From the NCBI GenBank assembly GCA_027492255.1, contig JAPUFB010000003.1, positions 77,889 through 141,888 of the forward strand: DNA of 64,000 nt, given 5' to 3'. The notes beneath the pieces are model-generated. The model was given only the letters and a program-made list of their open reading frames with translations, had not been told where the DNA came from and ran no database searches. A program made the position numbers and the translations under genes. Within the stretch, counting starts at the first letter, position 1. Each line of letters begins with the position of its first letter. Shown piece by piece: positions 5,097 to 9,104 of the stretch. The DNA is from Candidatus Saccharimonadota bacterium. Lineage in GTDB: Bacteria > Patescibacteriota > Saccharimonadia > Saccharimonadales > Saccharimonadaceae.

Positions 5097-5122
5097 AAGA
5101 AGCCCCTTGGGGCTTTTTTTAT
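5094..5122 (+). terminator. Rho-independent terminator
   Basis: AAGCCCC / GGGGCTT stem followed by a run of seven T, immediately after the stop of the small membrane protein. The opposite strand also ends in T-rich sequence, so it may serve the convergent sbcB as well; the sbcB stop lies inside it. Confidence 0.85.
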
Positions 5123-6513
5123 TCGATCGGAGCGATACTTTCCGCCCATAATTGTAGTTCCTCGAGAACAAACGTATCGGCGGTAGTGTGACTTAATTTT
5201 ACGAGCATATCCATATAGACTGGCAATTGGGCACGAAGTTTTCGAGAGCGATAATTCTCCCAGGCAACGCGCTCATCATCACTGAGGCTTCCGCTGTACC
5301 AACGACCCTTATAGCGAAGGAGTAGTTCGCTGAGACGCTCATCAGCGAAATCGGGATGAAAGTCAGCTAACTGTTCCGGATTAGCATTCCTCACTGCCGC
5401 CATCCGCGGCTTATCCTTGTCGTTCAGGAATCCATCATAGAGTTGCGCCTCAGGATCTGTTTGCGGCTCATATGGTTCTCGCATCTCAAATGCAGTACGT
5501 ACCGCATCGCCAAATGCCGGATTTGATAGGAGCAGCTTGAGATGACGGGCAATGAGCTCTTTTTCAAGATGAAGGCGCTCACGGTCCTCGTCCCTTAGTA
5601 CGCTCTCCGGTGCTACCGCTGGACAACGATTGAGGCTTATCTCTTTCACGGGCAAGCGCGGAGCATCCTGTGTTTTTTTCGAGAACATCACTTCCGCTAA
5701 CGCCTGAGGAGTAGCTTGAAGAAATGGCGTCGGATCTTCGCGCAGATCATAAACAAGCACCGACCCTGGCTTTGTCCCAGGCGCAATCGGAAATGCAAGC
5801 GTCGTTTTCTCATACTTCACGTCATATCTTCCGCTACAGTACACAAACGGCCGTGGGTCATCGAGTGAAACGAGTGCTGCCACTTTTTTCTTATCGCGGA
5901 TACCGAGAAGGTACTCAAACATCTTCGGCTGCTTGTCGCGGACTAATTTTGCAACTTGAATTAATGCTTCAACATCACTAAGTGCATCATGCGCCTTTGT
6001 ATGCAATAACTCATTTTCCTTTGCAATTGGTTCGAGTTTATTAACCGCCTTTCCTTCACTGTCAAATGGCCATCGTATCCCATCAGGACGCAGTGCGCGT
6101 ACCATTCGAACAACATCGAGAAGATCCCAGCGGCTTCTTCCCTCACTCCAGCTCCACTCGTACGGATCATAAAAATTACGCCAAAAGGTATGCCGTATAA
6201 ACTCATCATCAAACCGCACATTATTAAATCCAACAATTGTCGTATCAGGCGTGAAAATTTCTTCCTGAATATACCGACAGAACTCCGGCTCATTGAGACC
6301 ATCCGTTAGCGTCGCCTGAGGGGTAATGCCCGTCACCATAATCGCTGCAGGATCAGGAAGCGTATCATCACTCATCTTTACGAGCAGATTAATTGGCTCA
6401 CTAATCGTCTCAAGATTCATATCTGTACGAATCCCAGCAAACTGCATAATACGGCCAAACCGCGAATTTAAACTGCTTGTTTCAAGATCATAAAAGAAAA
6501 ATGTCTGGGCCAT
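5119..6513 (-). CDS. sbcB: Exodeoxyribonuclease I (DnaQ-like 3'-5' exonuclease)
   Basis: 464 aa, close to the E. coli enzyme (about 475 aa). Exonuclease I degrades single-stranded DNA 3' to 5' and acts in mismatch repair and recombination. The DEDDh exonuclease residues are visible: FFFYDLETSS (residues 4-13), NNVRFDDEFIRH (about 95-106) and HDALSDVEALIQ (about 165-176). The C-terminal half matches the SH3-like and helical extension of ExoI, including ALPVKEISLNRCP-type sequence. I chose ATG 6513 because the longer open frame upstream is GC-rich shadow sequence from the neighbouring peptide gene and lacks the family N-terminus. A TATGCT hexamer 6 nt upstream suggests a leaderless message. Confidence 0.93.
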   Translation of the reverse strand: MAQTFFFYDLETSSLNSRFGRIMQFAGIRTDMNLETISEPINLLVKMSDDTLPDPAAIMVTGITPQATLTDGLNEPEFCRYIQEEIFTPDTTIVGFNNVRFDDEFIRHTFWRNFYDPYEWSWSEGRSRWDLLDVVRMVRALRPDGIRWPFDSEGKAVNKLEPIAKENELLHTKAHDALSDVEALIQVAKLVRDKQPKMFEYLLGIRDKKKVAALVSLDDPRPFVYCSGRYDVKYEKTTLAFPIAPGTKPGSVLVYDLREDPTPFLQATPQALAEVMFSKKTQDAPRLPVKEISLNRCPAVAPESVLRDEDRERLHLEKELIARHLKLLLSNPAFGDAVRTAFEMREPYEPQTDPEAQLYDGFLNDKDKPRMAAVRNANPEQLADFHPDFADERLSELLLRYKGRWYSGSLSDDERVAWENYRSRKLRAQLPVYMDMLVKLSHTTADTFVLEELQLWAESIAPIE

Positions 6514-6619: not shown

Positions 6620-6826
6620 TCAGTAGGGGTAGCACTTCGTGATCGGCTGCCAGAAGTTCCACCAGGGCCGCGTCGTGACGCAGTAGGTGTCCGGCAGACA
6701 GACCCCGTTGCTGTAGCAGGTCCAGCCCGACGAGACGGGCGCGGCCTGGCTCGGAGCCGCCGGAACGACGACCATCGCGGCGGCAAGTACTGCTGCGGCG
6801 GCGAATCGTGCGAGACGCATCTTCAT
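6620..6826 (-). CDS. Small secreted Cys-rich peptide, unknown
   Basis: 68 aa. The start ATG 6826 is set by a strong AGGAGAGGA ribosome-binding site 8 nt upstream. Residues 1-28 form a textbook signal peptide: KMRLAR, then an Ala/Val-rich hydrophobic core, cleavage after PSQA. The mature part is about 40 residues with four Cys in the pattern C-x5-C-x5-C-x15-C and an aromatic patch TRPWWNFWQP, which suggests two disulfides. GC-rich codons (GCC, GCG, GTC, CTC) contrast with neighbouring sbcB. It has its own promoter and a very long terminator. Not recognised as any family. A secreted toxin, bacteriocin-like peptide or host-contact effector is possible but is inference only. Confidence 0.8.
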   Translation of the reverse strand: MKMRLARFAAAAVLAAAMVVVPAAPSQAAPVSSGWTCYSNGVCLPDTYCVTTRPWWNFWQPITKCYPY

Positions 6827-6884
6827 GAGAATTCCTCTCCTAGGCGCCAATCCTATGATTAGGATCAGTCGGTCTTGCTACGAT

Positions 6885-6913: not shown

Positions 6914-6934
6914 CAAACTCTTTATCAAGAATAC

Positions 6935-6955
6935 AAAAACACCCCTTTGAGGGTG
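6935..6955 (-). terminator. Terminator of the 305-nt RNA
   Basis: Minus-strand CACCC / GGGTG stem with a 6-nt loop followed by TTTTTG. The hairpin is nearly identical in length and sequence to the one ending the 1-kb RNA at 7310-7331. Confidence 0.85.
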
Positions 6956-7239
6956 CAGACTTTAAAAAGAAATATTTTGGCATACCAGAGTGGACGCGAG
7001 CCGAGGAGTCACTACCGGGCAGGGGGACATGATGTCACCCCTGCCCGGCGAATAGACGCGGCGGCCCGGAAAGACGGGGTGATTATGGCTCAGCCCGCAA
7101 AGCCTAGTATCGGATTGTGGCTCCGAAGGGGCCCCTTCCCGTTAGGGTCTCAATCGCTTCACTACGGAAGTCCTTCCCTGGTATGCCAATGTTCATATTT
7201 CGTCGTCGCTACCTTTTAGTGGTACGCGTCGAAATACTT
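6935..7239 (-). ncRNA. Candidate structured noncoding RNA, about 305 nt
   Basis: No convincing ORF on either strand, yet it has its own promoter (7246-7273) and terminator. A perfect 12-bp helix, 6977-6988 with 7178-7189 (core GGCATACCAG), closes a GC-rich domain. Before it lies a 5' hairpin at 7196-7236 (TATTTCG/CGAAATA and TACC/GGTA). Inside is a near-perfect 34-nt hairpin at 7015-7048 (stem CCGGGCAGGGG). I found no RNase P, tmRNA or SRP signature: no GAGGAAAGTCC block, no tRNA-like 3' end, no SRP tetraloop motif. The RNA family is unknown to me. The architecture (5' hairpin, closed multibranch domain, terminator) matches that of the larger RNA next door. Confidence 0.75.
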
Positions 7240-7245
7240 AATAAC

Positions 7246-7273
7246 ATTGTATCATAGATTATACATTATGTCA
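7246..7273 (-). promoter_or_regulatory. Promoter of the 305-nt RNA (shared cassette)
   Basis: Minus-strand TTGACA (7268-7273), 16-nt spacer, TACAAT (7246-7251) preceded by TATG. The -35 sits in AAGTATTGACA and the -10 in TATGaTACAATG, words shared with the promoters of the 1-kb RNA and of the 201-aa protein gene. Confidence 0.85.
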
Positions 7274-7290
7274 ATACTTTTTTATAATAT
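7268..7290 (-). repeat. Upstream promoter repeat, copy 1 (copy 2 at 8334-8356)
   Basis: A 23-bp AT-rich segment including the -35 box of the 305-nt RNA is repeated at 8334-8356, upstream of the 1-kb RNA, with one mismatch. A weaker version precedes the 201-aa protein gene at 9199-9220. It looks like a conserved UP-element plus -35 block. Confidence 0.8.
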
Positions 7291-7309: not shown

Positions 7310-7331
7310 CAAAAAACACCCATCTAGGGTG
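7310..7331 (-). terminator. Terminator of the 1-kb RNA
   Basis: Minus-strand CACCC / GGGTG stem, 6-nt loop, then six T. Same hairpin design as 6935-6955. Confidence 0.88.
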
Positions 7332-8304
7332 CGAACGTCATGATTATTCTTGACAGTCAGATAGAGAATTGAAGGTGAACCACGGGCCCGGGAGAAACTG
7401 AATGTCTCCCGGGCCCTTCATCATCAAAGTAAAGAACACAACACCTGTCATATCTGGATTCTCACCCAAGATGCACAGGTTACTCTATTCTTTTATTCTG
7501 AAGTTGTGGTGTTCGGTAAAGCGGTTGGTGTCGGACCGTCACTTGTTTCTCTTCCGTCTGTTGGTTGGAAGGTACTCTCTGCGGTCCCCTAGGGGGCGAA
7601 GTCTGCCCACGTGGGTGTGCTAGTTACCGTTATTTTTCGGAGTGTGGCGTTGACGCCTTAAGACTCCGAGGCAGTAACTGCTGAATCCCACCGTCCCAAT
7701 AGCACCGGTGCCCTTCTCAGGGCGCGCTGCTACGCTACGCTAGCGTAACAGCACCTAGGTGAAGCCCATGGGCTCCTTTTTCCGTAGGTGGTTGGCAGTT
7801 GATGCACAGTGCTTTTTCATCAAGGTGCAGGCTCAGAGGCCCCTGCGCAAACCTTGTCCTCGTCGTATTCGCGTCTCGCCGGTCGAAACCATGCGTGAGC
7901 CGAACGTGACTCTTGCTAGCTTTTGGCTGGGGCGTGCTAGCGCCCTATCTACAGATCTTCACGAATCTCCTTTCAGGAGCCGACTTTTGACGCCGTGAGT
8001 GGGTGGCAGTTTTTGTAAAAGCTACGGCGGATGCATGCACCCGTCCTTTCGCGTCACGGCTACTATTGTCTTTTACAACAAGTACTAGCCTGCGGATAAG
8101 CACCTACAGTGTTGGCGAGCGAGCTCTCGATGACGGTTAGTGACCGTCAGTGGCTCGCGCCCCTGCGCCAGTCGGTTGTTGCTGGCCTGAATAGGAAGAA
8201 GCTATTTCTTCTCATTCAGGCCAGAACAATCCCTGAAATCTCTATCTGACTTGTCAATGTATCGTTTGACTAGCGCGGCGAAAGCCAGTAGCAATCAAAC
8301 GCAT
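7310..8304 (-). ncRNA. Candidate giant structured noncoding RNA, about 1 kb
   Basis: A promoter with perfect spacing (8311-8339) and a terminator frame about 1,000 nt without a plausible ORF. An 18-bp helix closes nearly the whole molecule: 8239-8257 pairs with 7350-7367 with a single bulged base. Nested helices are easy to see: 8182-8192 with 8214-8224 (extended by 8176-8180/8225-8229 and 8195-8200/8206-8211); 8013-8021 with 8070-8078; 8115-8120 with 8153-8158 plus 8132-8137/8143-8148; 7622-7627 with 7674-7679 enclosing 7638-7643/7663-7668; and a 12-bp GC hairpin at 7384-7416. A CGTTTGA hairpin lies at the 5' end. Such size and complexity recall GOLLD, ROOL or OLE RNAs, but I cannot identify it with any of them. 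Strand is set by promoter and terminator. Confidence 0.82.
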
Positions 8305-8444: not shown

Positions 8445-8479
8445 GGCGGGGAGAGATGAAAAAGATATCTCTCCCCGCC
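8445..8479 (-). other. GC-rich 3'-UTR hairpin ahead of the terminator
   Basis: A perfect 13-bp stem (GGCGGGGAGAGAT) with a 9-nt loop lies between the stop codon at 8499 and the terminator at 8402. No T run follows, so it is not itself a terminator. It could protect the 3' end or bind a protein. Confidence 0.8.
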
Positions 8480-8498: not shown

Positions 8499-9104
8499 CT
8501 AGCTCGCCTTGACCGTCTTACTGCGGGACGTCACCTTCTTGGGCGAAGGAGTGATCGCCGACGGAAGATCCGTGACCGTGGCAGCCTTGGCCTGGCTCGG
8601 ACCCGTGGGCTTGTCGCCCGGGACGATGCGCAGACGCGGAACCTTGACATCTCCCTGCTCAGCCGCGCGCTCCGCGAGGAGCCGCTGGCCGAAGAAGAAC
8701 CCGTCCTCGATCACGACACCGTGGTCGGCGGCGAGCCTCAGTCCGTTCTCGAACTTGTCGAGCACGAGGTTGCGCGTCGCGGGGTCGAGCTTCGGCAGGT
8801 CCTTGTCGGTCTTGCAGAGGAGGCCCTCTGCGAAGTCCTTGACGATGAGGATGAAGGTCGTGCTCCACTTCTTCTGGATCGCTGTCTTGGCGACGGCTCC
8901 GAGGAAGTTTTTGCCGAAGAATTTGAGATCATCGACGTGCTTCTGCGCGATGCGAGCGAGCCTTGCGGCCTCGCTGGCCTCGGCAGTGAGCTTGGCCTGC
9001 TCGGCCTCGGCGAGTCGCCTCTGCTCGGCGAGCGTGGCCTGCATGGCCTCGCGGGTCTGGGCCTCGGCGAACGCGGCGGCGAACGGATCGGTGGAAATGG
9101 TCAT
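8499..9104 (-). CDS. GC-rich coiled-coil protein, unknown
   Basis: 201 aa. ATG 9104 is chosen over an upstream alternative because GGAAGGAG sits 5-7 nt before it and a sigma-70 promoter lies at 9176-9204. Residues 10-50 are Ala/Glu/Gln/Arg-rich heptads (AEAQTREAMQATLAEQRR), predicted coiled coil. Residues 55-150 look globular (FFGKNFLGAVAKTAIQKKW, then LDPATRNLVLDKFENG). The C-terminal 45 residues are Pro/Ser/Thr/Lys-rich and end in a basic tail. There is no signal peptide or membrane segment. Codon use is strongly GC-biased compared with flanking genes, suggesting transfer or special expression. No family recognised. It belongs to the same transcription-unit class as the two RNAs beside it. 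Confidence 0.8.
   Translation of the reverse strand: MTISTDPFAAAFAEAQTREAMQATLAEQRRLAEAEQAKLTAEASEAARLARIAQKHVDDLKFFGKNFLGAVAKTAIQKKWSTTFILIVKDFAEGLLCKTDKDLPKLDPATRNLVLDKFENGLRLAADHGVVIEDGFFFGQRLLAERAAEQGDVKVPRLRIVPGDKPTGPSQAKAATVTDLPSAITPSPKKVTSRSKTVKAS

Follow-up and report, generated by a model that had tools for sequence, protein, structure and literature searches.

Which kind of RNA, if any, is made from the GC-rich island between the ExoI gene and obgE in a Candidatus Saccharimonadota genome? The window, that is, the whole stretch of 64,000 nucleotides analysed here, has 46% GC, and between the ExoI gene (5119-6513, minus strand) and a PaaX-domain gene with obgE it carries an island of mostly 52-67% GC, flanked by AT-rich spacers. 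There the initial annotation had placed a highly structured noncoding RNA of about 1 kb, RNA1, and the 1-kb minus-strand element is confirmed to be real as described. What it is for was approached through its counterparts in related genomes and the content of its interior.

Results

Transcription signals and fold of RNA1

RNA1, delimited by sequence signals from the promoter to the T-run of the terminator, would extend over 7311-8304 of the minus strand, on which all features below lie unless stated. Its promoter, TTGACA-17-TAAAAT with an extended -10 (TG before the -10), is found at 8339-8311, with precisely the 17-nt spacing that had been annotated, and its intrinsic terminator at 7332-7311. 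The 5′-terminal hairpin P0 (8263-8301), at whose equivalent place a hairpin is also predicted in relatives, is followed by the linker ATACATTGACAAG (8250-8262), the stretch with the highest sequence conservation, whose consensus ACATTGACAAGTTGGATA continues into the closing helix P1. P1 joins the two ends of RNA1 through pairing of TTGACAAGTCAGATAGAGA with TCTCTATCTGACTGTCAA (8257-8239 with 7350-7367), in 18 pairs with one bulged A in the 5′ strand, and the same bulge can form in three relatives (G006, G040 and G048). The long hairpin P2 (8176-8229) stands immediately 3′ of the P1 5′ strand, and the GC-rich 3′ hairpin P3 (7384-7416) ahead of the returning strand P1′. The end-joining 18-bp helix, nested hairpins and the terminator proposed at the outset were borne out. 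The minimum free energy of RNA1 was −391.9 kcal/mol against a mean of −314.4 for dinucleotide shuffles (z −7.9), and none of 20 shuffles folded as low.

Searching RNA1 against all of Rfam 15, whose models include GOLLD, ROOL, OLE, tmRNA, RNase P and group I and II introns, gave no match at the gathering threshold and none meaningful at E values up to 10, and 20 loci of relatives likewise matched no Rfam family, which supports an undescribed family of structured RNA. A tmRNA, suspected from GGTTTCGAC, was rejected, the tmRNA being located on another contig of the genome. Retrons, group II introns and DGRs were rejected as well, since they require a reverse transcriptase and PF00078 was found in none of six genomes, namely that of the window and the unit-bearing G001, G002, G025, G048 and G109. 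Elsewhere in the window's genome, RF00028 (group I intron) was matched with 78 bits at L027:17415-17647 (-), and a locus at L032:11255-11890 (+) combines TTGACA-17-TATAAT with a GC-rich structured stretch of ~620 nt, without a convincing long ORF, an Rfam match or a clear P1.

A second, smaller unit of like build, RNA2, stands in tandem with RNA1 at 6934-7240 (fold z −6.7), and comprises a promoter (7274-7246), P0 (7195-7238), P1 (7178-7189 with 6977-6988), P3 (7015-7049), a terminator (6956-6934) and a possible mini-ORF, MKRLRP* (7162-7142), without a long P2. In the window, one plus-strand promoter-like site (7260-7288) lies inside an AT-rich spacer. The adjoining sequence also holds a GC-rich orphan ORF of ~200 aa (8499-9104, GC3 0.84) that has a promoter of its own (9204-9176), a long hairpin on the 3′ side (8445-8479), a terminator (8402-8384) and UTRs that can pair over 8 bp (9143-9136 with 8488-8481), which alone is no better than chance. 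A small GC-rich ORF of ~70 aa (6620-6835), with a signal-peptide-like start, several cysteines and a promoter-like site (6913-6885), lies directly ahead of ExoI. The orphan protein neighbouring RNA1 had no relatives within the genus and one weak match within the family.

Units of the same build at the obgE-ExoI locus

A DNA search with the whole RNA1 sequence returned only short matches at its ends and almost nothing else; one further match (L004, query 281-315) looks like coding sequence of a ribosomal-protein region and was taken as chance. The gene order obgE-(PaaX)-gap-ExoI-UvrA is conserved among relatives, and the obgE-ExoI gap of other genomes contains units that share the build but hardly any BLAST similarity, or none. 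P1 and the terminator served to recognise units; P0, P2, P3, the linker, the Shine-Dalgarno (SD) sequences and the mini-ORFs were not used for this. The units analysed come from 28 genomes including that of the window (18 in a first set and 10 in a second); the 27 further members occupy the same obgE-ExoI place in the window's GTDB family, and one outlier in another family was analysed as well. The RNA of the family is about 0.35-0.9 kb long. The upstream region was retrieved for about 90 genomes of this family, and in many of them the unit is absent and the obgE-ExoI gap short. No unit was found at this place in other families of the order, where the gaps are mostly 12-181 nt. Additional to the 28, G128 (L190, about 951-2260) apparently has two tandem units upstream of ExoI, like the window, and an inverted repeat in G089 was dropped as a unit, lacking a promoter, P2 and P3.

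The outlier (G100, L016:10682-12085) begins with a 5′ end near-identical to that of the window, ACAAGTCAGATAGA...GGATTGTTCTGGC, and its P1 arms almost equal those of the window; it lies away from ExoI, and its closing helix of 15 bp surrounds a gene for an LPXTG-type secreted protein with a GC3 of 0.89.

Wider searches led back to the same locus. Because MAFFT aligned P0 poorly, a signature pattern replaced the covariance model of the 5′ domain. This signature alone gave 43 places in 393 genomes; among the 30 loci retrieved, a high-scoring P1 followed by a terminator occurred only at the obgE-ExoI locus, in each case in a genome already in the unit set. The end-motif pattern was absent from viral contigs, and in genome contigs it hit the known outlier and two unrelated MAGs, the latter taken as chance. 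In a closing-helix scan of 494 kb of the window's genome, the two window units topped the list and the rest scored near the swapped control.

Covariation of the closing helix

The units share a recurring order of promoter, P0, ACATTGACAAG linker, P1, P2, interior, P3, P1′ and terminator. In 17 genomes, 98.4% of the cells of an 11-pair P1 core were paired, against 63.8% in shuffles and about 30% in slid controls, and compensatory cells numbered 67 versus 16; since P1 helped to recognise the units, this pairing is partly selected and not fully independent. The compensatory changes in homologues that a conserved structure calls for were found, all 11 core pairs being changed on both sides. The P1 arms of one unit scored 24-33 with each other, against a mean of 12.4 when arms were swapped between genomes. 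At the P2 position a mean of 23 pairs can form over the 28 units, weakly in G161 and G172. The proposed family thus combines covarying P1, P2, P3, the linker motif and the obgE-ExoI location.

Whole units fold with z values from −5 to −17, whereas for interiors without the ends the values lie between +0.5 (protein-coding members) and −5.3, RNA1 having −3.4. Much of the structure thus resides in the ends. In the related units of G120 and G161 (L205 and L203), the apical core of P3 is seemingly kept as AAGTGG..GAG.CTCCCCCC.GA..CTCAC.GCCCAC, while the stem below changes sequence.

Interiors are replaced between conserved ends

Pairwise comparisons at an E value of 1e-3 locate the conservation. 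The sister units of G040 and G048 align over the first 149 nt (81%) and the last 67 nt (85%), with nothing between; those of G120 and G161 align at the ends only, over 83 nt (77%) and 68 nt (74%); and those of G019 and G180 over 65 nt at the 5′ end, without alignment of the interior. At the level of sequence, these comparisons show that the ends, P0-P1-P2 on one side and P3-P1′-terminator on the other, are kept, and that the interior, unalignable between genomes, is replaced. This departs from the initial comparison with GOLLD, ROOL and OLE, which are large, highly structured bacterial RNAs whose functions are unknown or poorly understood and whose elaborate structures are conserved (PMC12286853), whereas in the present family, to which none of their models fits, only a frame is conserved. 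A constant frame with exchangeable cargo recalls, by analogy only, integron gene cassettes, but here the frame consists of RNA structure, and the promoter and terminator signals lie inside the unit. To our knowledge, no known bacterial RNA class keeps only a closed covarying frame around an interior that is coding in some members and not in others and is replaced between species, and the open-licence literature yielded no published account of an RNA of this kind from these bacteria.

Inverted ends that enclose exchanged interiors, variable presence at one locus, and an outlier in another family with nearly the same arms could also be read as a mobile DNA element with the P1 arms as its terminal inverted repeats. 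We regard this as highly improbable, because the arms differ between genomes yet stay complementary, where a transposase would keep the sequence of its ends. Sequence-conserved ends at several places of a genome were not found, the examined genome parts showed no multiple copies, the unit has no transposase, and the genome has no reverse transcriptase.

Small ORFs in the interiors

The commonest interior motif is the Shine-Dalgarno sequence GAAAGGA, found 14 times versus 0.9 expected. Mini-ORFs, defined by a strong SD, an ATG or GTG start and a stop within 10 codons, numbered 24 in 16 of the 28 units (two of which are starts nested in one frame), compared with 1.76 in shuffles (maximum 6) and one on the reverse strand, and their stop was UAG in 17 of 24 versus about 30% in shuffles. 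RNA1 itself has three: MGFT* (7755-7769), with AAAGGAG at 7773-7779; MKICR* (7945-7962), with a GTG start after AAAGGAG; and the weakest, MHPP* (8022-8036), after AAAGGA. The early claim that RNA1 contains no ORF therefore holds for long ORFs and fails for these short SD-led ones.

MGFT* also belongs to a second motif, Gly-Phe-(Thr/Val/Ile)-stop, encoded by GGN TTY RYC stop. It was observed 8 times in the first 18 units against 0.04 expected, a figure to be read with the fact that the choice of the motif and the recognition of units were made on the data they describe, and with which the shuffles and the second genome set agree. The first genomes gave MGFT*, MLHPEAGFT*, MHYSGFT*, MYTSGFI*, MEYTAGFV*, MIHVRGFT*, MWSAGFV* and MNFTSGFI*, and the second MHTSGFT* and MVRSGFT*. 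Third codon positions vary at Gly and Phe, by which the peptide is indicated as much as the RNA, and the mini-ORF peptides of 4-9 residues are candidate products.

Other members contain orphan or secreted ORFs of 18-168 aa, two of them with signal-peptide-like starts; nine interior ORFs scanned had no credible Pfam match, and a plasmid search with two cargo proteins gave none. A convincing small ORF is missing from some units, those of G120 and G161 among them. The label noncoding, apt for RNA1 as regards long ORFs, is therefore doubtful for the family, whose interiors frequently carry SD-led small ORFs and some of whose members are plainly mRNAs.

Nine of the interior ORFs, most of those in these other members, have a GC3 of 0.73-1.00, versus 0.31-0.49 for obgE of the same genomes where measurable, and prefer C-ending codons with few AGG, TTG and GGG. 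Such usage may be called host-like from general knowledge of codon usage at high GC. The units could accordingly be imagined as messages for a partner cell, that is, armoured, nuclease-resistant RNAs with host-adapted codons that would be passed into a high-GC host for translation in that cell, the cargo being exchanged as both partners coevolve. C-ending codons with a GC3 up to 1.00 against 0.3-0.5 in the core genes of unit-bearing genomes, ends whose protection would suit transfer, and hypervariable cargo all fit this scenario, which we nevertheless hold to be quite improbable: in several members the codons of the mini-ORFs are ordinary ones, genes recently acquired from a host would show equal codon usage, and GC-rich orphan genes exist in the window's genome outside the obgE-ExoI locus as well, making acquisition from a high-GC organism the simple explanation of interior codon usage. 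As a separate observation, about twenty isolated stretches of high GC (58-71%; L019, L020, L033-L035 and L037) were seen in 494 kb of this 45% GC genome, and many of them are ORFs for orphan, secreted or membrane proteins, for example an LPXTG-like one at L037:860-1858 and one with DUF350 at L034:181-1044.

Discussion

Based on the recurring transcription signals, the coevolving P1, the end hairpins, the replaced interiors and the SD-led small ORFs, all shown here by comparison of sequences, we propose, with confidence slightly above even, that RNA1 belongs to a new RNA family of end-armoured, cargo-exchanging transcripts, probably long-lived mRNAs that encode small, hypervariable peptides. 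That the units are expressed, stable and translated is what we infer from these features. First, the strong promoter at the obgE-ExoI locus would drive a transcript cassette closed from 5′ to 3′. With its ends paired and guarded by terminal hairpins, the RNA could then withstand ribonucleases that depend on a free end and so persist for long. The interior would be cargo open to exchange, and most of it would be translated into peptides that are small or very short. Such peptides would diversify fast, as expected for products aimed at a changing partner, either a host or competitors. The cargo of RNA1 would be a structured one with mini-ORFs only, MGFT* among them, and its above-shuffle interior structure is as compatible with a functional RNA as with a message.

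Ranked next, and credited with a minor though real share of the probability, is a regulatory or dual-function RNA, in which the interior would act through base pairing or by binding proteins, with the mini-ORFs serving only to recruit ribosomes, for example so as to protect, time or titrate the RNA. The nearest known RNA in overall kind is RNAIII of S. aureus, with 514 nt, 14 stem-loops, three long-distance helices and an encoded small peptide (PMC3861533), and the family shares with it, as sequence features, a peptide ORF in a structured RNA with long-distance end pairing. The closed ends, the strong promoter, the structured interiors of several noncoding members (z −3.4 in G000, −3.4 in G017 and −5.3 in G044) and SDs that are strongly selected ahead of ORFs too short for obvious proteins would all suit such a function. 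However, the fold of RNAIII is a single conserved one, with UCCC loops for pairing to the SDs of its targets, whereas here the interiors are unalignable even between sister genomes, the C-rich anti-SD motifs through which RNAIII pairs show no enrichment (CCTCC 9 versus 14.3 expected; TCCCC 17 versus 15.1), and some members are clear protein-coding mRNAs.

End-to-end pairing in an mRNA with a small ORF is also known from the type I toxins hok and aapA, whose 5′-3′ long-distance interaction gives a highly stable mRNA (PMC6733600), kept silent until it is processed, and several cargo ORFs of 30-50 aa would be of fitting size. In these mRNAs the SD is hidden in the pairing, but the P1 arms of the present units hold no SD, which is internal, after P2, and the cargo differs from genome to genome. 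RNA1 moreover has no ORF for a small hydrophobic toxin, and a type I toxin mRNA appears very improbable. As regards an antisense antitoxin RNA, the window has the plus-strand promoter-like site at 7260-7288, and a non-exhaustive search found no conserved antisense gene. The 5′ and 3′ UTRs of icaR mRNA likewise pair within one bacterial transcript and block the SD through UCCCCUG (PMC3868564), whereas P1 of the family is longer, outermost and covaries across genomes.

In conclusion, the reading of RNA1 as an end-armoured message predicts an unusually stable transcript and translated ORFs of ≤10 codons, and the GF[TIV]-stop mini-ORFs pose a further puzzle of their own. The family RNA may be a long-lived vehicle dedicated to small messages that change fast, and through the family one can begin to address how small, fast-evolving products are deployed by these reduced bacteria.
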